From Geitlerinema sp. BBD 1991-9 (GTDB lineage: Bacteria; Cyanobacteriota; Cyanobacteriia; Cyanobacteriales; Geitlerinemataceae), in assembly GCA_001657325.1 (NCBI GenBank), contig LWRO01000030.1:1-64000 (forward strand): 64,000 bases of DNA, read 5' to 3'. The notes under the pieces were generated by a model. The model saw only the letters and a list, made by a program, of their open reading frames with translations. It made no database searches and was not told the origin of the DNA. The first letter of the stretch is position 1. The number at the start of each line of letters is the position of its first letter. This document shows positions 33,344-44,243 of this stretch, in pieces. The position numbers and the translations under genes were made by a program.

Positions 33344-34435
33344 TTAACCCAGAGCTACCCGTTTGAGGATAGTCGGTGCAATTTGGCTCAGCGGTAGAAC
33401 CTGTTGCACGGCATTCAGTGCAATTGCCTCCTTCGGCATCCCAAACACGACACTGCTGGCTTCGTCCTGGGCGATCGTCAGTCCCCCAGCTCGATCGATC
33501 TCTAACAATCCCGACGCACCGTCTTTCCCCATACCCGTCAGCAATACCCCTAAAGTCTGACGACCGTAGTGTCGCGCAACCGATTCAAACGTCATCGTAA
33601 CCGCCGGACGATGTCCGGCTAGAGGGGGCGCGTCAGAATAGCAGAAACATCGAGATCGATCGACAATTAAATGTCTGTCTTCCGGTGGAAAGTACGCCGT
33701 TCCCGGTTTGGCTCGCTGTCCCGCTTCGGCGATGCTGACTGAAATTTGACACTCAGCATCAAGCCACTTCACCAATCCCTCTAAAAACCCGCGACTGATA
33801 TGTTGGACGCAAACGATCGGGACGGGTAAAGTTTTCGGCATGGCAGACAAGATCGTCAGGAGCGCTTGCGGGCCGCCTGTCGATGCACCGATCGCGACGA
33901 TTTGATACGACAACCGCCGAACGCTCAGCGGTGGCTTGGGAACTCGGACTCGCTCTCGTTCGTGGGTGAAATATTGTTGGGGTGCTGTCTTCACCATCAA
34001 CGAAGCAGAAGAGGAACGTCGGTGGGTAAACACGGAAACACCCGATAACACGCGAATTTTCGAGATCAATTCTTGTTTCAGGGCCTCCCAATTCCCTGAC
34101 GTACTGGCAATTGGCTTGGGCAAGACATCCACAGCACCAGCATTTAAAACGCGAAAGACGTTTTGAGTGTCTTCAGCTTGCACGGAAGCACTCAACACCA
34201 AAATCGGATGAGGCCTTGTCGCCATAATTTCTTCGGTCAGTTCCAACCCTCCCATTTCTGGCATATGAAGGTCGGTACAAATGACATCAGGGCGCACCTG
34301 AGTCAGCAGGTGTAAGGCTTCTTTCCCCGTTTTCGCCATCCCCACCAGCTCGATGTCCGGGCAGTTGACAAGGATACGTTTGAGAATCGCTTGGGCAACG
34401 GGGGAATCTTCTACAACGAGTACGCGAATCGACAT
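33344..34435 (-). CDS. cheB: Chemotaxis methylesterase/deamidase CheB
   Basis: The product is about 363 residues from the Met reading MSIRVLVVEDSP; an upstream in-frame Met at 34498 is less likely. The receiver domain (1-120) has the phosphorylated Asp at D55 (CTDLHMPE). A linker of about 50 residues follows. The esterase domain has the catalytic Ser in AIGASTGGPQ, His in CVQHISRGF and Asp in LLTGMGKDGA. CheB removes methyl groups from receptors, opposing CheR. It follows cheA by about 65 bp on the same strand. Confidence 0.95.
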   Translation of the reverse strand: MSIRVLVVEDSPVAQAILKRILVNCPDIELVGMAKTGKEALHLLTQVRPDVICTDLHMPEMGGLELTEEIMATRPHPILVLSASVQAEDTQNVFRVLNAGAVDVLPKPIASTSGNWEALKQELISKIRVLSGVSVFTHRRSSSASLMVKTAPQQYFTHERERVRVPKPPLSVRRLSYQIVAIGASTGGPQALLTILSAMPKTLPVPIVCVQHISRGFLEGLVKWLDAECQISVSIAEAGQRAKPGTAYFPPEDRHLIVDRSRCFCYSDAPPLAGHRPAVTMTFESVARHYGRQTLGVLLTGMGKDGASGLLEIDRAGGLTIAQDEASSVVFGMPKEAIALNAVQQVLPLSQIAPTILKRVALG

Positions 34436-34499
34436 TTTCGATCGGGTTGGGGCAGGGTTTCTCCACCCACAACTTGAAGGAGTCCCATATTCCATCATC

Positions 34500-37400
34500 T
34501 CAAATCAAGCGCCGCAGCGTTTCAACCAGTAGTGCTTGATTGAAACTGCTTTTCGTGATGTAGGCATTCGCCCCGGCTTCTGCCCCTTGGCGGCGGTCTT
34601 CGTCGGTGGCGAGGGAGGTGACTAAAATGATGGGAAGTTCGCTGTACTGCGGTTGAGATCGAATTCTCGCCGTCAGTTCTAACCCATCGAGGTTGGGCAT
34701 TTGAATATCAGAGACGACGGCATCGCAATGGGACGATCGAAGTTTGTTGTAGCCGTCTAACCCGTCCACTGCCGCGATCACTTCGTAACCCGCCGCCTCT
34801 AAAATCCGTTTTTCTTGGGTTCGAGTGGTGATGGAATCTTCGACTAACAAAATTGTTTGCTTGGAAACGTTTTCTGATAGATGACTCTCCCCTCGAACCG
34901 CCGTAATGTTGGATGAAACGTCGGTAGTGAAGGACGACTGGCGGCGATGCTCGGGAACGGATTTCACTAAATCAGCGGGATTGAGTACGATACAGACTTC
35001 CCCAGTGCCTAAAATCGTTGCACCCGATACGTTGCGTACTCGCGCGAGCAGTTTGCTTTGGGGTTTGAGGATGGTGTCTTGTTCGTCGAGGAGTCGATCG
35101 ACGATCAATCCCAAGCGATCTTCGCCCATTTTGACGATGATGCACGACTGTTGACCTTCATCGGAACGGCTGTTGTCGAGCGAGGGCAATTCGAGTAAAT
35201 CCACCAATTTCACGATCGAAACGGGTTGGTCGTCGAATAGGATCGTGTCTCGTCCTTCGATCGAGAAAATTTCAGCTCGATCGACGATACAGGCAGTTTG
35301 CACGCACTCCACCGGTAAAGCGTAAGGCCGTCCGTTGAGGACGAAGAGCAACACGTGGGCGGTCGCCAGTGTCGTTCCGAGGTGCAGTTGAATCGTACAG
35401 CCTCGATTCGGTTCGGATTCGATTTGAATTGAGCCTTTGAGTCGTTCGACATTGGCGCGAACGACATCTAAACCGACCCCCCGTCCGGAGACTTCGGTCA
35501 CGAACGATCGGGTGGAAAATCCCGGCATGAAAATTAACGACTGAATTTGCGCCGTCGTCATGGCTTCGAGTTCTTCGGGCCGACACAATCCATGGGTCAG
35601 GGCTGTTTTTTTGATTTTTTCGAGATTGAGTCCCCGTCCGTCGTCGGACACTTCGATCGCGATGTGGCTGGCGTTTTGATACCCACGTAGGGTCACGATG
35701 GCGGTGTCCGGCTTTCCCAACTGACGGCGCTCTTCGGGAGATTCGATTCCGTGGTCGATGGCATTGCGGATAATGTGGGTTAGGGGATCTTTCATGTCTT
35801 CGAGGATGCGCTTGTCGGCACGGGTTTCTCCCCCCAGCATGACGAGCTTGACATTTTTGTTTTGGGAGCGCGCGAGGTCTCGAACTAAACGCGGATACAG
35901 ATTGAAAATTGTAGACAAGGGCAGTAGTCGCGAACGGCGGACTTCGTCTTCAATTTCGTCGGCGATATTGTCGAGCCGCGCGGTGTCTTCGGCAACGGTA
36001 TCGCGAAGGCTGTTGAGGAGCGTTCCCAATCGATCGAGCCGTTCTTCGCTTTGTTGGTGAAAGGCTTGGAGCTGTTGAACGGCATTTTTGCGAAAGCCGC
36101 TACCGTTGGACTGCAATTCTTCCCACAGAAAACGGTTCGCCGTATGAGCCTCGCGACTCCATTCTTCCCAAAAGTTGACAATATTTTCAATTTCTGACAA
36201 GCGATGGGCGATCCGAATTTTGGTAACGGTCAGTTCTCCAGCCTGGGTCATCAGCGCATCGAGGTTGCGAGTTGCCACGCGAATGGTATCGATGCGATAG
36301 CTCCCATCGTCAGGGGCTTGAGTGGTCGACGTTAGGGGAGCGGCGGCGGGTTTGGCCTTGGGCGTGCGCTCGGATTTTCCCTGTAATCGTCTCAGAACGA
36401 CATCGACCTCGAGACCACCGGCTCTTCCGGTGACGGCTTCGTTAACCAGTGCGCGGATGGCATCGAGTCCTGCGTACAATCGATCGAGTAAAGACCGAGC
36501 CTCGTTCCCGCTCTGCGAAGCGTCTCCATCTCCTTGAGTTCCCTCATCGAGATCGGCGTTCAGTTGCATTTTCCCTTCTTTGACGGAAACGAGCTGTTGT
36601 TCCCATTCGTGGGCGACTTGAGCGATAACGCCAACACCGAGCATTCCTGCATCACCTTTAATACTGTGAATTTCCCGCAAACATCGATCGAGCTGAGCAG
36701 TATCGTCGGGATGTTGTTCGAGGTGGAGCAGTCCTTCGTCGAGTTTTTGCAGGTGGTCTTCGCTGGCAATTTGGAAGGTGTGACGCAGTTCGTCGTCGTC
36801 GATATATAGACTGCTTGCCGCTAGGCTTTCGACAGCAGCAGATTGGGGCGCTGGAGGCGTTGGTTGGGGGATTGGTTGAGGTGCTGGCTTGGACGTTGGG
36901 GTCACGGCTTCGTCAACCCGCTGGCGGAGGGTATCGAGTTCCCGAAACAATCGATCGCACAAGTCTGAAGAAATGTCTCGCTCTCTGGCTTGGACGGATA
37001 CCACTTGCTGCTCCCAATCATGGGCCAAACTCGCCACAACCTCGACCCCCAACATTCCTGCATCACCTTTGAGACTGTGGATTTCTCGGAGAATTGCATC
37101 GATCGGCGTGCGGTCTTCGGGATGTTGTTCGAGGCGTAGCAGACCGTCGTACAGTTTTTGGAAGTGGTCTTCGCTGGAACGATGAAAGGTTTCGCGGAGT
37201 TCCTCGTCTTCGATGTAGGATACTGCGGCGGCACTCGGCTCGTGAATTGGTATCGGTGTTGCAGGCTGTTCGTGACTCGATGTGTCGAGCGTGGGGGCAG
37301 TAGTTTCTGGGGATGCCCCCGTTACGATTTCTGTGACTTGTTGGCGAATCACGTCGAGACTGCCATAGAGTCGATCGAATAATTCGGATGTTAGGGAAAT

Positions 37401-38132
37401 ATCACCTTGCTGGATGGAACGAAGCTGTTGTTCCCATTCGTCGGATAATCGCTCGACTCGATCGAAACCAAACATCCTCGCATCGCATTTGAGACCGTGA
37501 ATTTCTCGTAAAATTTCCTCGAACTTGGCAACCTCCTCGGAATGTCGTTCTAAATACGATAGGCCGTCGTCGATTTTTTGAAGCCGATCTTCGCTCGCTG
37601 CTTGGAAGATTTGCAGGAGTTCCCCATCTGAGGCCTCGTCAACCTCTGAACGACTGTTAGTCGCAGGAAGTGTCGGGATATCGGCTGTCTCCCGCGAGTC
37701 CTCGATCTCGGCATTTTTTTCAGCACCAGCCTCGGTGGACGGTGGCCCGGCTGACTCTCCTCCCATGAGTAGCGCGAGAACGTAGAAGGTTTGAACGCCC
37801 GATGGTTCGCCTGTAACGGCTTCGTGGATGAGTTTTTGAAGGGCATTCAGTCCCTGCTGAAGTCGATCGAGCAAGGATCTAGAGCATTCGGCCTTACCCT
37901 GTTGAATCTGAACGATAAGATGTTCCCATTGGTGGGTGAGTGTGGCGATATCTTTGAGTCCCAGCATTCCCGCATTACCTTTGAGGGAATGAGCGCTTCG
38001 CACGAGATCCTCGAGGTAGCTGGTATCTTCTGGGTTTTGTTGAAGGCGGGACAATCCTTCTTCGAGAGATTTCAACTCTTCTGTACTTGCTTCTTGAAAA
38101 ATTTCGCGCAGTTCTTCGTCTTCAATTGCCAT
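34500..38132 (-). CDS. cheA: Hybrid CheA kinase with four HPt domains and a receiver
   Basis: The product is about 1210 residues from MAIEDEELREIF; an upstream Met at 38216 adds 28 unlikely residues. Four HPt domains lie in a row with candidate phospho-His H48 (HSLKGNAGMLG), H212 (HGLKCDARMFG, the most divergent), H352 (HSLKGDAGMLG) and H489 (HSIKGDAGMLG). Then come the dimerisation helices, the ATPase (HIIRNAIDHGIES; VSDDGRGLN; GRGVGLDVVRANVE), a CheW-like regulatory domain and a C-terminal receiver with Asp in VSDIQMPNLDG. This architecture resembles PilL/PixL-type kinases that control type IV pilus motility. The HPt repeats show internal duplication. Confidence 0.95.
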   Translation of the reverse strand: MAIEDEELREIFQEASTEELKSLEEGLSRLQQNPEDTSYLEDLVRSAHSLKGNAGMLGLKDIATLTHQWEHLIVQIQQGKAECSRSLLDRLQQGLNALQKLIHEAVTGEPSGVQTFYVLALLMGGESAGPPSTEAGAEKNAEIEDSRETADIPTLPATNSRSEVDEASDGELLQIFQAASEDRLQKIDDGLSYLERHSEEVAKFEEILREIHGLKCDARMFGFDRVERLSDEWEQQLRSIQQGDISLTSELFDRLYGSLDVIRQQVTEIVTGASPETTAPTLDTSSHEQPATPIPIHEPSAAAVSYIEDEELRETFHRSSEDHFQKLYDGLLRLEQHPEDRTPIDAILREIHSLKGDAGMLGVEVVASLAHDWEQQVVSVQARERDISSDLCDRLFRELDTLRQRVDEAVTPTSKPAPQPIPQPTPPAPQSAAVESLAASSLYIDDDELRHTFQIASEDHLQKLDEGLLHLEQHPDDTAQLDRCLREIHSIKGDAGMLGVGVIAQVAHEWEQQLVSVKEGKMQLNADLDEGTQGDGDASQSGNEARSLLDRLYAGLDAIRALVNEAVTGRAGGLEVDVVLRRLQGKSERTPKAKPAAAPLTSTTQAPDDGSYRIDTIRVATRNLDALMTQAGELTVTKIRIAHRLSEIENIVNFWEEWSREAHTANRFLWEELQSNGSGFRKNAVQQLQAFHQQSEERLDRLGTLLNSLRDTVAEDTARLDNIADEIEDEVRRSRLLPLSTIFNLYPRLVRDLARSQNKNVKLVMLGGETRADKRILEDMKDPLTHIIRNAIDHGIESPEERRQLGKPDTAIVTLRGYQNASHIAIEVSDDGRGLNLEKIKKTALTHGLCRPEELEAMTTAQIQSLIFMPGFSTRSFVTEVSGRGVGLDVVRANVERLKGSIQIESEPNRGCTIQLHLGTTLATAHVLLFVLNGRPYALPVECVQTACIVDRAEIFSIEGRDTILFDDQPVSIVKLVDLLELPSLDNSRSDEGQQSCIIVKMGEDRLGLIVDRLLDEQDTILKPQSKLLARVRNVSGATILGTGEVCIVLNPADLVKSVPEHRRQSSFTTDVSSNITAVRGESHLSENVSKQTILLVEDSITTRTQEKRILEAAGYEVIAAVDGLDGYNKLRSSHCDAVVSDIQMPNLDGLELTARIRSQPQYSELPIILVTSLATDEDRRQGAEAGANAYITKSSFNQALLVETLRRLI

Positions 38133-38435
38133 GGTGATGAGACTCCCTTGCCAATGCCAAGCCGCTATTTGGGTTGCAGTTTGCCCCTTGCTATTTTTAT
38201 ATCTTGGCATTGTCACCCGGCCAACGGCAAAGTTTTTCAGACAACTGGTTTTAACTTTGTCCGATCGGTTATCTGTTTAGACTCAGAGCTCCTTCAAGAT
38301 CGATCGAGCGCTTTCAACCCTTTCACGTTTCTCGAAAATCGATCGTTACACGTCTCACTCCGGCCAAAGATTTTTCGATCTCGTAAATCTTTCTCGTAAA
38401 TCTTTTAAGTCACACAGATTTCGCCCATTTAAAAA

Positions 38436-38458
38436 GACGCGATTTCTCGCGCCTTTGC
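38436..38458 (-). terminator. Terminator after the coiled-coil gene A
   Basis: On the minus strand GGCGCGA, loop GAAA, TCGCGTC is followed by five T. The stem is 7 bp with one wobble. It lies about 195 bases after the stop of the coiled-coil gene at 38650 and before cheA. Confidence 0.55.
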
Positions 38459-38567
38459 AAAAAAAACTAAACGGTCAAAAAACTCTTTCGATCGTTCCTC
38501 AATACAATGTCTCGAACAAACACCAGGATCTCAACTCAAAACACCCCTCAACAACAATCAACTAAAC

Positions 38568-38597
38568 GGGTGCATTTCAATTTCGTAGAATGACCCC
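38568..38597. repeat. Solo end of a family A miniature element
   Basis: Thirty bases beginning GGGTGCATTTCAATTTCG match the left end of copies 1 and 3 up to GAATGACCCC, then the similarity stops. It is a remnant or an isolated end. Confidence 0.6.
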
Positions 38598-38617
38598 AAC
38601 TAAGCGATGTTTGTACG

Positions 38618-38648
38618 GGTGACTGATGACTGGTGACTGGTGACTGAA
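38618..38648. repeat. Short tandem tract (TGACTGG)n
   Basis: About four units of TGACTGG/TGACTGA just after the coiled-coil gene A (downstream on its strand). The same unit recurs at 43009-43047. Confidence 0.75.
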
Positions 38649-38649
38649 A

Positions 38650-39723
38650 TCACTTTCCTCGCGGTTGGTTTTTCGCTTGTTCGAGTGCGATGTCTTTCAC
38701 GGCTTGCAAGGATTTTTCGTTCGCCGCCCCTTCGATCGCTTTCACCGCTAGTTCTTGGACTTGCATCAGTGTCGCATCGAGCTGTTGGGTGAGATTAGCA
38801 ATACGGAATTCTCGATCTCGAATCGCAGCTTCTAAACCCTGAACCTGTAACTCATAGCGTTGCTTCTCTCCGTCAACTTCTTTCTGGCGTAAATTGGCGT
38901 TGTTTTTCGCTTGTGCGGTGGCAATATGACGCCCGACTTCTTTCCCCCGCTTGACTTGTGCTTCTTTTTCTGCGGGAAACGCTTCGACTTTGGCTTTCAC
39001 CTCTTCAAACTCTTTTTCTCGCTCGGAAATCGACTTTTCTCGCTCTTCCCAGGCTTTCTCTTGCTGCTGGCGGTTTTCTTCCAAGTCGCGATATAGTTGA
39101 CTCTGTTGCTGTTGGTATTCTTCCGCTTCAGTATTCCGTTGAAGCTCTCGATCGTAGCAATATTCTCGCTCGTCACGCTGGCGTAGCTTTTGATAGTCGA
39201 GATTCCGTTCTTCGATCGAGCGTTTGCGAGTTTCCCGCTCTTTCTCCCAAGCCTGTTGAATCGCTGAAAATTCCTGCTCTAAGGTTTCCCGTTGTCCCTC
39301 GAATTCTTCGGAAAATGTCTTGGAACTGTCTTCATATTCACGAACCAGTCGATCGAGTGTGTCGTCTTCGATCTCGGATAGCTCGTGAAGTTGCTGCAAT
39401 CGATCGACTTCTTCTGCAACCTGACTCCCAACTTCTCCCAACTTCGAGGCTTCTCGAGTGAGTTTTTCCGAGAGTTGACTCACCGAACCGCCAAATCCCA
39501 ACTTCAGTTGCATCAACAGTTCGATCGTGTCTTGGATTTGCTGTCGATCGAGTTTTTCTTGCGTTAACGGAGATCCTTGGATTTCTGGCGTGGCTGTTTT
39601 GCCATTACCTGAAGATGAAGGCTGTTTTGCCTGACGTTCCAGCATCTTTTTCTCCTTCAGAGCTTCTTGGTACGCTTCCCAAATTTCAGATTTTGTGCTG
39701 CGAGCGTTGACTTTCTTGACCAC
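38650..39723 (-). CDS. Coiled-coil protein A (paralogue of the next gene)
   Basis: The product is 357 residues and almost entirely charged, heptad-like coiled coil. A short polar N-terminal part (VKKVNARSTKSEIWEAYQEAL) and a Ser/Gly-rich linker lead to a continuous helix from about residue 60 to 340. Distinctive parts are YCYDRELQRNTEAEEYQQQQ and a C-terminal LTQQLDATLMQVQELAVKA. The second half aligns by eye with the neighbouring 324-residue protein. No enzyme domain, membrane helix or signal peptide is seen. It may form filaments or scaffolds. I do not recognise a named family. Confidence 0.8.
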   Translation of the reverse strand: MVKKVNARSTKSEIWEAYQEALKEKKMLERQAKQPSSSGNGKTATPEIQGSPLTQEKLDRQQIQDTIELLMQLKLGFGGSVSQLSEKLTREASKLGEVGSQVAEEVDRLQQLHELSEIEDDTLDRLVREYEDSSKTFSEEFEGQRETLEQEFSAIQQAWEKERETRKRSIEERNLDYQKLRQRDEREYCYDRELQRNTEAEEYQQQQSQLYRDLEENRQQQEKAWEEREKSISEREKEFEEVKAKVEAFPAEKEAQVKRGKEVGRHIATAQAKNNANLRQKEVDGEKQRYELQVQGLEAAIRDREFRIANLTQQLDATLMQVQELAVKAIEGAANEKSLQAVKDIALEQAKNQPRGK

Positions 39724-39850
39724 GATCGTTCACCTCAAGATTTTTGTTGACTTTGTCTGTGACTTTTTACCCCAGGCAGTACAGAATTGAGTCTGTTATT
39801 TTTTGAAAAACGACGATCGATTTCAAATACAAACATTCTGCCTGTAAGAC

Positions 39851-39968
39851 CTAGAGCGCCAGTACAGAAGTAATGGTCGGGTGTGTTACGCGGACGAAAA
39901 ATGGGTGGGAAATCCCGTTCATGAGCTTTTCGCGTAACGCACCAAGCACTTTTGTACCGCTGCTCTAG
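39851..39968. mobile_element. Miniature inverted-repeat element, family B, copy 2
   Basis: A 118-bp element with the same ends as the copy at 13754-13892: left end CTAGAGCGCCAGTACAGAAG, right inward end CTAGAGCAGCGGTACAAAAG. Its centre has its own inverted words, GTGTTACGCG and CGCGTAACGCAC. It fills most of the gap between the two paralogous coiled-coil genes. Confidence 0.65.
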
Positions 39969-39973
39969 AACAC

Positions 39974-40948
39974 CTAATTTCGATTGCTAAATGCTTGTAC
40001 GGACAATTCTCGAGACTGTTGAGATGCCGTTTGCAACTGTGTAGAAAGCTCGACAATTCGCTCGTCTTGACGTTGAATGGTCGCCTCTAATGTTGCAATT
40101 TTGACTTCATACCCTTGCTTCGCGCCTTCCCATTCTTTCTCGAGCAAGTTTGCCTGAACGGTTGCGTCTCGATTCACATCGCGAATGGCATCTTCTTTCG
40201 CTTTCTCAAAGGCTTGCTTTAACTGTGCCTCGAAGGTATCTGCCTGCTGTTTGTTCTCGTCAAAGGTTTCGCGATTTGCAGTCAAGAAAGCTTCCCGTTC
40301 TGTCCAATCTTTCTCTTTTTCACGAGTTTGCTGCGCCAGGTTCGTCTCTAACTCCCGTTGTTGCCGTTCGTATTCGTCCGCGTCGATTTTGTGTTGTTGC
40401 TGCAATTCGTATTGATAGTCAGCCTCTTCCTGTTGACGCTGTTTCTGCAACATTGCTTCTGATTCCGCCACCTGCGTCTCGAATTCTTGTTGTTCTTTTT
40501 CCCAGGTTTTGCGGGTTTGAGTGCTTTCTTTTTCCAAGGTTTCCCGCTGACGCGATACTTCGTCTTCCAACGCACGCAGTCGCTCTTGATGTTCGCGTCG
40601 CAGTAGATGTAACGCATCGGCAACAATCCCGACTTTTCGCAACTGTTCCAAATTTTCGGTTTCGACTTCGATCGCTTTTCGCAGCTCTTCTAATTTCCCC
40701 GCTTCGGCTTCGAGGCGCTCGGATAGCGTCGTTACGGTGGTGTCGAACTCTAACTGCAAATCCGCAAAGCCGCGAACGATGCTGTCAGGGGTATAGGTTG
40801 ACGCAACGTCGAGAAGTTGTTTGTTTTCCTGTTTCTCGGCTTCTTCTTCTTTGGTGGCAACGCGGTACTCTTGGCGCTTGCACTCGGTGAGAATTTTTTG
40901 GAACTGCTGTAGTAGCAGTGTTTTGTTGTCGAAGGATACTTGAGTCAC
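39974..40948 (-). CDS. Coiled-coil protein B (paralogue of the previous gene)
   Basis: The product is 324 residues, again a long charged coiled coil from about residue 55 to 310. It shares with protein A the YxYEL-type motif (DYQYELQQQHKIDADEYERQQ), a WxEREaFL-like stretch and the C-terminal pattern VELSTQLQTASQQSRELSVQAF. The N-terminus differs. Its start lies about 250 bases from the divergent XRE gene, and two matching 18-bp operators lie near the XRE promoter in that gap. The two coiled-coil genes probably arose by tandem duplication and may form a heteromeric fibre or scaffold. Function unknown. Confidence 0.8.
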   Translation of the reverse strand: MTQVSFDNKTLLLQQFQKILTECKRQEYRVATKEEEAEKQENKQLLDVASTYTPDSIVRGFADLQLEFDTTVTTLSERLEAEAGKLEELRKAIEVETENLEQLRKVGIVADALHLLRREHQERLRALEDEVSRQRETLEKESTQTRKTWEKEQQEFETQVAESEAMLQKQRQQEEADYQYELQQQHKIDADEYERQQRELETNLAQQTREKEKDWTEREAFLTANRETFDENKQQADTFEAQLKQAFEKAKEDAIRDVNRDATVQANLLEKEWEGAKQGYEVKIATLEATIQRQDERIVELSTQLQTASQQSRELSVQAFSNRN

Positions 40949-41078
40949 GATTTGAAATCTCCGTTTCGCAAAAGGCTATCTACACAGATCGAACGGACGA
41001 GCAATAGTGGGGGAAAGTCAGGCCAGATAAGCCTTGGGAGTCTCTGACCCGACCGATCTGCTGCATCGTTCTCGCTAA

Positions 41079-41096
41079 GTTGATTAAAAAATCAAC
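41079..41096. promoter_or_regulatory. Operator O1 in the XRE/coiled-coil promoter region
   Basis: The sequence GTTGATTAAAAAATCAAC is an inverted repeat with 7-bp arms. On the minus strand it reads GTTGATTTTTTAATCAAC and matches O2 at 15 of 18 positions. It is placed for binding by a dimeric HTH repressor. Confidence 0.6.
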
Positions 41097-41115
41097 CAAC
41101 TTCAGTGTAGCGCTC

Positions 41116-41133
41116 GTTGATTTTTTTGTCAAG
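41116..41133. promoter_or_regulatory. Operator O2 overlapping the XRE gene -35 box
   Basis: GTTGATTTTTTTGTCAAG matches O1 at 15 of 18 positions, in the opposite orientation, 37 bp away start to start. Its TTGATT is also the likely -35 hexamer, so binding would block transcription. Confidence 0.6.
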
Positions 41134-41146
41134 CATTCGCTAAAAT
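41117..41146 (+). promoter_or_regulatory. Promoter of the XRE regulator gene
   Basis: -35 TTGATT (41117-41122), an 18-base spacer, and -10 TAAAAT (41141-41146). The first in-frame ATG (41145) overlaps the -10 box and so cannot be the start, which favours the GTG at 41202. Confidence 0.55.
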
Positions 41147-41201
41147 GCTGGTGGGATCGGGCTTTTACCCGATTTATAGGTGTTTATCCAGGAAAAAGAC
41201 T

Positions 41202-41549
41202 GTGGAAGAAACCTTCGGACAAGTCATCCGCCGCACTCGTGTGGATTTAGGATTGTCACAACGAGAGTTAGCGAAGATGCTACGCGTCGATTTTACGTAT
41301 CTATCGAAGTTAGAGAACGATCGAGCGAGCTATGCTGCCAAAGAAGATGTCATTCGATCGATCGCCCAACACCTAGACTTAGATGAGGAAGAGTTAGTCT
41401 TTTTGGCAGGGCGAACGCCACAGCGATACGAGGAATTTCTCAAAAAGCACTATCGAGAAATGCCCAAACTGTTTCAGCGTATGGTGGAAAATCCCGCCTT
41501 TGCCGAACAGATTTTTCGCGCCAGTTTGGGAAGTGAAGAGGTAAGGTGA
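41202..41549 (+). CDS. XRE-family HTH transcriptional regulator
   Basis: The product is 115 residues from GTG at 41202, which follows AGGAAAAAG; an ATG at 41145 lies inside the -10 box. The HTH covers about residues 5-60: FGQVIRRTRVDLGLSQRELAKMLRVD, then TYLSKLENDRA (recognition helix region). The C-terminal 50 residues (YEEFLKKHYREMPKLFQRMVENPAFAEQIF) are helical and may dimerise or sense a partner. It is likely an autoregulator acting on O1 and O2, and by position could also control the divergent coiled-coil genes. A TauE/SafE exporter gene starts 38 bp downstream. Confidence 0.85.
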   Translation: MEETFGQVIRRTRVDLGLSQRELAKMLRVDFTYLSKLENDRASYAAKEDVIRSIAQHLDLDEEELVFLAGRTPQRYEEFLKKHYREMPKLFQRMVENPAFAEQIFRASLGSEEVR

Positions 41550-41587
41550 TGAGGAGGTAGAAAAATCGTAAATCGTCAATTGTTTGA

Positions 41588-42385
41588 ATGGTGTTTTCGT
41601 TACTGCTTGTCGGAGTTATCACCGGAACACTGTCCGGGGTACTGGGTATCGGTGGCGGTTTGCTAATGGTACCCGTCTTGATGCTGTCGGGAGTGGGAAT
41701 TCTGAATGCAACTGCGACAAGTTTAGTGGGCGTTACACTGAGTGCTATCTCAGGAAGTTGGCGAAATTGGCGTGTTGGCGATCTCAACCTGACGACTTCT
41801 TTCGCATTGGCTTTAGGAGGAATTCCACTGGCACAAGTGGGGGCTTGGTTGGGAGATCGACTTCCCGCTGCCATATTGGCGTTTTGCTTTGCTGGATTGC
41901 AACTCCTGGCGATCTATTTAATGGGATTGCGTCGCAAGCTCGCGGTACGTTCGCCTACTCAAATACAGCCAGTCCCTATCGAAACGTCCCCGCAATTTAA
42001 AATGTTCGGAATTGGGAGCGTTGCGGGGTTACTCTCAGGATTGTTCGGTGTCGGGGGGGGTTTAGTCATGGTGCCTTTACAAATGCTGCTGTTGGAAATG
42101 CCCATTAAGTTAGCTGTGAGAACGAGTTTAGGGGCGATCGTATTTATTGCAATCTCAGCTTTGGCACGTCATGGGATTCAAGGAAATGTCTTGTGGTTAC
42201 AAGGCACGTTACTGGGCATGGGTTGCACGATCGGCGCACAGTTTGGCACTCGCGTGTTACCCAAAATCCCAGAAAAACAGGTCAATTTACTGTTTCGATT
42301 ACTTTTAATTGCTATGGTCGGTTATACGATCTGGCAAGGCGTTGGGGAGATGACGATTTTGAGAGATACTGAAACTGTGAGATAA
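41588..42385 (+). CDS. TauE/SafE family membrane exporter
   Basis: The product is 265 residues with eight membrane helices in two related halves. Each half begins with the family signature: GTLSGVLGIGGGLLMVPVL in helix 1 and GLLSGLFGVGGGLVMVPLQ in the second half. Relatives move sulfite, sulfoacetate or other organosulfur anions outward; the substrate here is unknown. It is 38 bp after the XRE gene and 57 bp before msrA on the same strand, so the three may be co-transcribed in a sulfur or oxidation stress context. Confidence 0.9.
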   Translation: MVFSLLLVGVITGTLSGVLGIGGGLLMVPVLMLSGVGILNATATSLVGVTLSAISGSWRNWRVGDLNLTTSFALALGGIPLAQVGAWLGDRLPAAILAFCFAGLQLLAIYLMGLRRKLAVRSPTQIQPVPIETSPQFKMFGIGSVAGLLSGLFGVGGGLVMVPLQMLLLEMPIKLAVRTSLGAIVFIAISALARHGIQGNVLWLQGTLLGMGCTIGAQFGTRVLPKIPEKQVNLLFRLLLIAMVGYTIWQGVGEMTILRDTETVR

Positions 42386-43049: not shown

Positions 43050-43583
43050 CTACCGAACAGTTTTTACAAATTCGATCGCAGCTTCCAAACGACTCGAACA
43101 CAATTGCGCGAACGCATCAAACCACATTCGATCGCTGTCTAACGAATCGAGCTTATCCAACTGTTTTAAAAACGCCTTTGCCCGTTCTTCCAATTGATGG
43201 CGCTCTCGAATTTCTTGCTGTTCCCGCTCCTGCTGCAACCGCTGTTTTTCTTGCTCTTCGCGACGCAATCGATCTCGTTCTTGGCGTTTGCGATTTTCTT
43301 CTTCCCGTAAAACGTCTTCCGGAGAACGATACGCACTGGATTTGGACTTGAAGTTAGGAAGGGAAGCAGGAGTCGAACGGGGTTTTGGAGGGGTTTGAAT
43401 CGAATCGATCGCGGATTGGTAACATCCCGAAGTCAGCGGTTGTGATGTAGAAGAATTAGGAACCAAACGACTGAGATGCACCATGATTCGGGCATCTTCT
43501 TCTCGGTCTTTCGCCGCTTGCAGATAGGGGTTTTCGCGTGTTGAGTTTTCCCGTTGTAGCTTTAAGTAGGGGTTGTCAGACAT
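43050..43583 (-). CDS. Small coiled-coil protein next to a VWA gene
   Basis: The product is 177 residues. A short repeated motif (NPYLKLQRENSTRENPYLQAAKDR) opens the protein, then comes a low-complexity Ser/Thr/Pro stretch. A strongly charged helix covers about residues 88-145 (EEENRKRQERDRLRREEQEK and onward). The last 30 residues (KLDSLDSDRMWFDAFAQLC) look like a small folded end. It starts 33 bp after the VWA gene stop, so the two are likely an operon. No family recognised. Confidence 0.65.
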   Translation of the reverse strand: MSDNPYLKLQRENSTRENPYLQAAKDREEDARIMVHLSRLVPNSSTSQPLTSGCYQSAIDSIQTPPKPRSTPASLPNFKSKSSAYRSPEDVLREEENRKRQERDRLRREEQEKQRLQQEREQQEIRERHQLEERAKAFLKQLDKLDSLDSDRMWFDAFAQLCSSRLEAAIEFVKTVR

Positions 43584-43616
43584 AAATCGATCGATCGTTT
43601 ATCTCAGTCAATCACA

Positions 43617-44243
43617 TCAGTCAATCACAGCGGCGGCGAGTAAACGTTCGAGTGAACCGAAGTTTTCAACGACAGTATCCATCGTTTGCGTGTCTACAAT
43701 GTCAACTTCGCCGAGGTTGTCATCGAGATGTTGGAGAAAGCGCGTTGCCCCTTTATCGTAACCAACTTGCCAGAATCCTACAGCGATCTGTTCGCCCGAA
43801 CCGCTGGCTTGGGCGGCATTGCGTAAGGCGGTTTCGACAACTTTAGGGTCTGTTGCTTCGCCGTCAGTCAAAACGAGATAGGTAATCGGACGGGCTTGTG
43901 GACTACTGAAGTATTGTTTGAAAACGAGATCGAGGGCGCGTCCTAAGTAAGTACTTCCTGCTGTAGGACGTTCGGGATAGTACTGGGAGAATGCTTCTGG
44001 GGTGACGTTTTCGTAGAGGCGAGGTTCTCCGCCGAAAAAGACGAGATCGATGCTGGTGTCTGGGTCGTATTCAGTGGCCTTGGCGACGATGAAGCTAATG
44101 ACTTCTTGGGTGTAGTTCCAGCGACTCGTTGCCCCCGGACAGTCTGGAACGTTCATAGACAGGCTTTCATCGATCATAAGGCAATAGTCTCGCCCCGAAC
44201 AAATTTTTTGAAAGTCTTCAGGAGACAAGGGAGGAAAAGACAT
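43617..44243 (-). CDS. VWA-domain protein
   Basis: The product is 208 residues and is almost wholly a von Willebrand factor A domain. The MIDAS motif is intact: D25-E-S27-L-S29 in YCLMIDESLSMN; the later Thr is in AGSTYLGRAL and the Asp in YLVLTDGEATDP. It has no signal peptide or membrane helix, so it is cytoplasmic. Cytoplasmic VWA proteins often work with MoxR ATPases or Ter-type stress systems, but no such partner is seen here; the partner may instead be the coiled-coil gene 33 bp downstream. Biological role unknown. Confidence 0.85.
   Translation of the reverse strand: MSFPPLSPEDFQKICSGRDYCLMIDESLSMNVPDCPGATSRWNYTQEVISFIVAKATEYDPDTSIDLVFFGGEPRLYENVTPEAFSQYYPERPTAGSTYLGRALDLVFKQYFSSPQARPITYLVLTDGEATDPKVVETALRNAAQASGSGEQIAVGFWQVGYDKGATRFLQHLDDNLGEVDIVDTQTMDTVVENFGSLERLLAAAVID

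Follow-up and report, generated by a model that had tools for sequence, protein, structure and literature searches.

A stretch of 64,000 nucleotides of the cyanobacterium Geitlerinema sp. BBD 1991-9 (contig LWRO01000030.1, positions 1 to 64,000, hereafter the window) carries a locus in which a small regulator of the XRE class is likely to repress both its own gene and a divergently transcribed pair of coiled-coil genes of the type known as ZicK/ZacK in Anabaena sp. PCC 7120, as judged from sequence comparison. The pair consists of CC1 (39974-40948, 324 amino acids (aa), minus strand) and CC2 (38650-39723, 357 aa, minus strand), and the XRE gene is located at 41202-41549 on the plus strand (115 aa if GTG 41202 is the start). 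Open reading frames and helix-turn-helix (HTH) domain matches agreed with the first-pass annotation of the window on two adjacent coiled-coil genes with a divergent XRE gene. Two candidate operators lie in the gap between CC1 and XRE, site 1 (41080-41095) nearer to CC1 and site 2 (41117-41132) nearer to XRE.

CC1 and CC2 are paralogues. The BLASTP match between them (34% identity over 258 aa, 120 bits) spans about 80% of CC1, so that the relationship was correctly noted at first, and too narrowly confined to the second halves of the proteins. Shuffles of the matched CC2 segment reached at most 27.7 bits when composition was kept (n=300, any match in 140) and 23.1 bits when the heptads were preserved (n=300, any match in 135). 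Each protein of the window was closer to its Nostoc counterpart than to the paralogue (34% in both cases), with 47% identity over 323 aa for CC1 and 48% over 359 aa for CC2. A tree of 28 CC1 and 28 CC2 sequences was divided into two clades, each with 100/100 support and with the Nostoc proteins in the matching clade, and the duplication is therefore likely to predate the diversity that was sampled. Divergent from the pair in Nostoc spongiaeforme are genes of a response regulator of the OmpR type, of a histidine kinase and of PhoU; sphR, sphS and phoU are numbered all4503, all4502 and all4501 in PCC 7120 (PMC7564538), and as the Nostoc order matches these, the next two genes on the opposite strand should be alr4504 and alr4505. 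By identity, phylogeny and Nostoc gene order, CC1 and CC2 are orthologues of alr4504 and alr4505, respectively, in a comparison made with the Nostoc copies.

The alr4504-alr4505 products are reportedly ZicK and ZacK, an intermediate-filament-like heteropolymer described by Springstein et al. in FEBS J in 2021 (doi 10.1111/febs.15630), and are said to act in multicellular trichome shape together with MreB and SepJ. According to the review PMC7766704, strict interdependence of ZicK and ZacK in forming the heteropolymer has been observed, and the two are cited in mBio as heteropolymer-forming and as interacting with SepJ (PMC10653889 and PMC8262864, the SepJ link in the latter). The first-pass annotation could point to no named system so arranged; the coiled-coil pair does match one, and the proposed two-component filament gains support from the comparison with ZicK/ZacK, in which the adjacent paralogous genes stand in the same order on one strand. 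The Nostoc arrangement differs in that sphR-sphS-phoU is divergent from the pair, with a core TTGA-N8-TCAA within 500 bp upstream of CC1 in 0 of 14 such loci counted, whereas XRE and twin sites of this core take that place here. The predicted model of CC1, computed as a single chain, has one long helix (residues 54-321) behind a short head (mean predicted local distance difference test score (pLDDT) 79.8, predicted template modelling score 0.33), and the domain scan matched no Pfam family for CC1 or CC2. By their descriptions in the available passages of PMC7002697, crescentin- and FilP-like proteins, Fm7001 and All4981 would share with this model a long coiled-coil rod and a short head, and would differ from the proteins here, which are a pair of paralogues without a Pfam family.

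The 18-bp sites GTTGATTAAAAAATCAAC (41079-41096) and GTTGATTTTTTTGTCAAG (41116-41133) are 37 bp apart; the agreement at 15 of 18 positions originally reported for them holds with one site inverted, and head to tail it drops to 11 of 18. The pattern TTGATTWWWWWRTCAA was matched three times in the window and nowhere outside the two sites (shuffle mean 0.00), and the bare core TTGA-N8-TCAA had six against 2.07 expected, four of them away from the two sites. A pattern search of the organism's own genome gave four further places besides the known sites (control reading 1), and no promoter context was recognised at them by eye. Two divergent promoters were predicted by a box search and recovered by an independent promoter scan, TTGACA-17-TACACT for CC1 (41104-41132, minus strand) and TTGATT-18-TAAAAT for XRE (41117-41146, plus strand). 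Site 2, earlier said to cover the -35 box of the regulator, does so and holds the predicted -35 box of CC1 as well, so that a single palindrome appears to be the -35 region of both genes. Site 1 lies a short way downstream of the -10 box predicted for CC1. No RNA family was found in 38000-42000 by the RNA family scan.

The sites recur in related loci, which are referred to here by L numbers (genomes by G numbers, families by f numbers). In 23 distinct loci with XRE and CC1 as direct divergent neighbours, nine of them from family f1, 42 cores were present in 21 of the 23 gaps, against a mean of 0.315 and never more than 3 in 200 dinucleotide shuffles. One core was found in four gaps, two in 13 and three in four; the first two were 34-41 bp apart, and the third followed 23-24 bp further. 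Each of the 21 core-bearing gaps had at least one site with TAnnnT 17 or 18 bp away toward CC1, in a -10 hexamer table that takes the best of four spacers and has no chance control, and the hexamer in the XRE direction was more variable. With conserved sites over the predicted promoter of XRE, the comparison favours the self-regulated locus that was proposed from the window.

In 30 other loci XRE was located 1.1-4.5 kb from CC1 and was still divergent ("far" loci). Upstream of XRE each of the 30 had three or four cores, and no core lay within 500 bp of CC1. The interval that separates XRE from CC1 held, on the strand of CC1, a small gene with the motif WTDTHYKL (WTD; 30 of 30), a gene of a 233-aa protein (27 of 30, in two parts in L070) and a gene of a 120-aa protein (30 of 30). 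Full frames were read in six loci of this type; in L025 the interval contains a transposase-like frame as well, and in L067 the 120-aa gene is separated from CC1 by about 60 bp. The wider locus count leaves out 11 loci: ten share their contig with a locus already counted, and L135, which has the sphR arrangement, need not have been dropped.

Cores were found upstream of CC1 in nine of the 42 loci with neither XRE nor sphR as a neighbour on the piece; seven of the 42 (L024, L066, L074, L077, L079, L083, L121), all on cut contigs, have the 233-aa or the 120-aa gene upstream of CC1 and are probably "far" loci without cores at CC1. A close XRE was present elsewhere in the genome for four of five named loci with CC1 cores and no XRE nearby, versus one of 18 without cores (Fisher p 0.0027), "close" meaning 130 bits, a cut-off chosen after the table was seen. 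The sample took in all five of these named core-bearing loci and, from the remaining 32 named loci that lack XRE, 19, of which L100 was dropped; six of the seven cut contigs, whose genomes may well hold XRE, are among the 13 loci left out, and the contrast is thereby favoured by selection. Genomes G017, G032, G046 and G058 have cores at CC1 and a close XRE elsewhere, and in relatives with the pair and no close XRE a core was found upstream of CC1 in 0 of 9.

Sites of XRE also face genes other than the pair. An exact core was located within 400 bp upstream of XRE in nine of 16 XRE loci away from the pair, some of the 16 belonging to a more distant XRE class beside a nuclease gene. Copies of XRE with about 47-55% identity to that of the window (66% in L180) were observed beside a PD-(D/E)XK nuclease gene in L186 (6289-8188), L180, L187, L189, L190 and L209-L212. 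Some of these loci have TTGA/TCAA repeats with a 9-base spacer, and in L186 and L180 a gene of the MMADHC-matching kind also adjoins the XRE gene.

The distribution was surveyed in 388 genomes of the same order with Nostoc CC1 as the query, and 248 of them matched, mostly with two matches each. From 122 locus rows (not deduplicated), 112 had both genes, eight CC1 only and two CC2 only, and CC2 followed CC1 on the same strand in all 112 two-gene rows. With XRE counted at E≤1e-31, a cut-off chosen after the results were seen, and with genome lists transcribed by hand, 148 genomes had the pair and XRE, 100 had the pair without XRE, 27 had XRE without the pair, and 113 lacked both; XRE thus does not accompany every pair, nor is it confined to genomes with the pair. 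The pair-only genomes include all 43 pair-bearing genomes of family f33, which points to XRE as a lineage-specific control and not as a part of the filament machine. One contig labelled Candidatus Gracilibacteria (L132) also carries XRE-CC1-CC2; it clusters with Hydrococcus in the tree and is probably a binning error.

The XRE protein has an HTH domain of the HTH_3 class (HTH_19, 1.3e-10; HTH_3, 3.8e-10; also HTH_31). Its best PDB profile matches were 8bny, "Immunity repressor protein" (E 6.3e-7), and 9sf2, followed lower by Stl, C.BclI and SinR, the listed matches spanning at most profile positions 1-89 of 108. Autoregulated XRE repressors, i.e. immunity repressors, SinR, Stl and restriction control proteins, are similar in their HTH_3-type domain and, going by the predicted sites, in having several palindromes over back-to-back promoters, unlike the present protein in that it has 115 aa, reaches the cut-off of no NCBIfam model in the model scan, and would have a filament pair as its target. 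The start first assigned, ATG 41145, lies on the predicted -10 box at 41141-41146, which makes GTG 41202 the likelier, if not proven, start, and XRE probably begins there. The longest XRE frame starts at the matching residue in four of the six loci with full frames (L037, L097, L101, L114). Against this start, the frames of L025 and L067 could begin earlier, and the match of the nearest relative extends back to residue 9 of the 41145 frame; the XRE alignment, with its rows cut at the start residue itself, does not bear on the choice. A TauE/SafE permease gene (41588-42385) follows closely after XRE on the same strand, as in several family f1 relatives, and is possibly included in the XRE transcript.

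We infer a circuit in which XRE binds the palindromes TTGA-N8-TCAA as a dedicated autoregulated repressor, rather than as an activator. XRE on site 2 would hide the -35 boxes of both back-to-back promoters, and XRE on site 1 would cover the transcript start of CC1. Its own gene and the filament pair would thus be kept low until a signal releases the repression, whereupon CC1 and CC2 would be expected to co-assemble into an intermediate-filament-like heteropolymer in this organism.

Several observations weigh against this circuit. The 23 gaps and the wider locus set are related by descent and are not independent. Palindromes over the promoter of XRE itself, conserved otherwise, were missing as exact cores from two of the 23 adjacent gaps (L032 and L050) and from seven of the 16 XRE loci that lie apart from the pair. 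Only two sites are present in the window, versus three or four in many "far" loci, and in G033, G044 and G050 a close XRE is located elsewhere in the genome, with no core at CC1. As many as 100 of the 248 pair-bearing genomes are without a close XRE, which in part amounts to the wide occurrence of the pair without its regulator that the first-pass annotation had itself named as damaging. ZicK is taken by us to be Alr4504, and ZacK to be Alr4505, and the shaping of trichomes, the role that has been published, may not be what the pair does in this organism.

An alternative, unlikely in our view, is that XRE mainly represses the WTD, 233-aa and 120-aa genes as a stress- or DNA-linked module without a role in cell shape, the coiled-coil pair having been captured downstream of these genes and later moved beside XRE. 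The gene content of the "far" loci favours it, as do the XRE loci on pieces that lack the pair (L181, L182, L183, L184), in which XRE is divergent from WTD, and relatives of the 233-aa protein (61-83% identity) in seven IMG/VR viral contigs (L197-L203). The response of the Anabaena proteins to β-N-methylamino-L-alanine also fits, alr4505 and alr4504 being up 20-fold and 4.35-fold, respectively, and marked as NtcA-controlled in the available part of PMC8147232. We take this response as a hint about conditions, but by Nostoc gene order the Anabaena genes would adjoin sphR and not XRE. Contrary to the alternative, several genomes retain sites at CC1 with their XRE elsewhere, and CC1, XRE and WTD were not found in viral contigs. 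No relative of the 233-aa protein was found in the Geitlerinema genome either, in a search that did not include WTD and the 120-aa gene, and the nearest divergent target of XRE here is therefore the pair.

The three-gene set was observed as a conserved unit divergent from XRE in L067 (7408-8922), L101, L114 and L183. None of its proteins had a family above the Pfam cut-offs or a match in NCBIfam or PHROG. The predicted structure of the 233-aa protein had a mean pLDDT of 34.9, and its PDB profile search gave 0 matches at E≤1. In L203 the relative of this protein is near a gene resembling DnaB helicase by eye.

It is improbable that the pair is a motility or chemotaxis scaffold working with a downstream CheA-CheB instead of a filament. 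Genes cheA (four Hpt domains, CheW, receiver) and cheB do come after CC2, on its strand, both in the window (33344-38216) and in eight fetched family f1 relatives (L023, L049, L051, L055-L058, L061), but in L044, also of family f1, the pair has no cheA next to it, the fetched loci of other families gave no near-full-length match to cheA, and the pair is far wider in distribution than the che linkage. Least probable of all is that the palindromes are not operators of XRE and represent no more than the -35 elements of two strong promoters, which happen to overlap: site 2 indeed supplies both predicted -35 boxes, but most loci have two to four copies with both arms and the N8 spacing, among them copies such as site 1 that do not serve as a -35 box in either promoter predicted for the window, cores were absent within 500 bp of CC1 from the 14 sphR-sphS-phoU loci, and the sites tend to track the presence of XRE.

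Three other assignments were rejected. As to a type II toxin-antitoxin system, XRE hit MqsA and HipB-type models only below cut-offs, and its neighbours offered no toxin partner, the TauE permease gene being next on its own strand and the coiled-coil pair divergent. As to anti-phage defence, no PADLOC match was obtained for CC1, CC2 or the proteins encoded at 43050-43583 and 43617-44243, and the matches of XRE in the PADLOC set were to HTH models only (HTH_VI, 6e-12; capH, 3e-7; control proteins). As to viral or plasmid origin, neither CC1 nor XRE had a match in phages or viral contigs; CC1 matched one cyanobacterial 1.2-Mb plasmid, and XRE three cyanobacterial plasmids at 35-45%. Weak matches were seen for Nostoc CC2 to gp268 of Bacillus phage G (24.6%, E 2e-8) and for both coiled-coil proteins to phrog_29668, of a kind in which coiled coils can mislead.

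The gap between CC1 and CC2 contains a hairpin repeat of 124 bases (39847-39970; -48.1 kcal/mol, z -5.1) resembling a miniature inverted-repeat transposable element, with 42 matches in the genome including itself, 40 of them at least 79 bases long at 83-100% identity. This element probably accounts for the wide gap between the two genes here. An inverted-repeat search of the gap found none, though the repeat folds into a strong hairpin. Also nearby, on the minus strand at 43050-44243, are a salt-stress gene of the Slr1339 family and a TerF-like vWA gene.

The control of bacterial intermediate-filament-like genes has, to our knowledge, been little described. The filament pair is already known, and its regulation by XRE looks new; a narrow search of the open-licence literature found no description of XRE, its sites or the attached three genes. 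The locus provides a repressor candidate with precisely predicted sites for such genes, and the XRE-bearing lineages form a natural comparison with Nostoc, in which the same filament genes stand beside phosphate regulators. In addition, three uncharacterised genes gain a partner and a regulator. More tentatively, and with doubt outweighing confidence, the regulon of one repressor may couple a two-component filament with the three uncharacterised proteins, of which one also has relatives in cyanobacterial viral contigs; in that case filaments of the ZicK/ZacK type would be a stress structure formed on induction and ancestral to the whole order, non-filamentous lineages included, and the trichome role and the sphR neighbourhood a later specialisation of Nostoc. 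The pair, or CC1 on a cut contig, was found also in Hyella, Hydrococcus and Prochloron, which are not known to form trichomes of the Anabaena type, and the role of ZicK/ZacK may therefore be wider than trichome shape. The findings also suggest that the ZicK/ZacK pair is older than the heterocyst-forming cyanobacteria.

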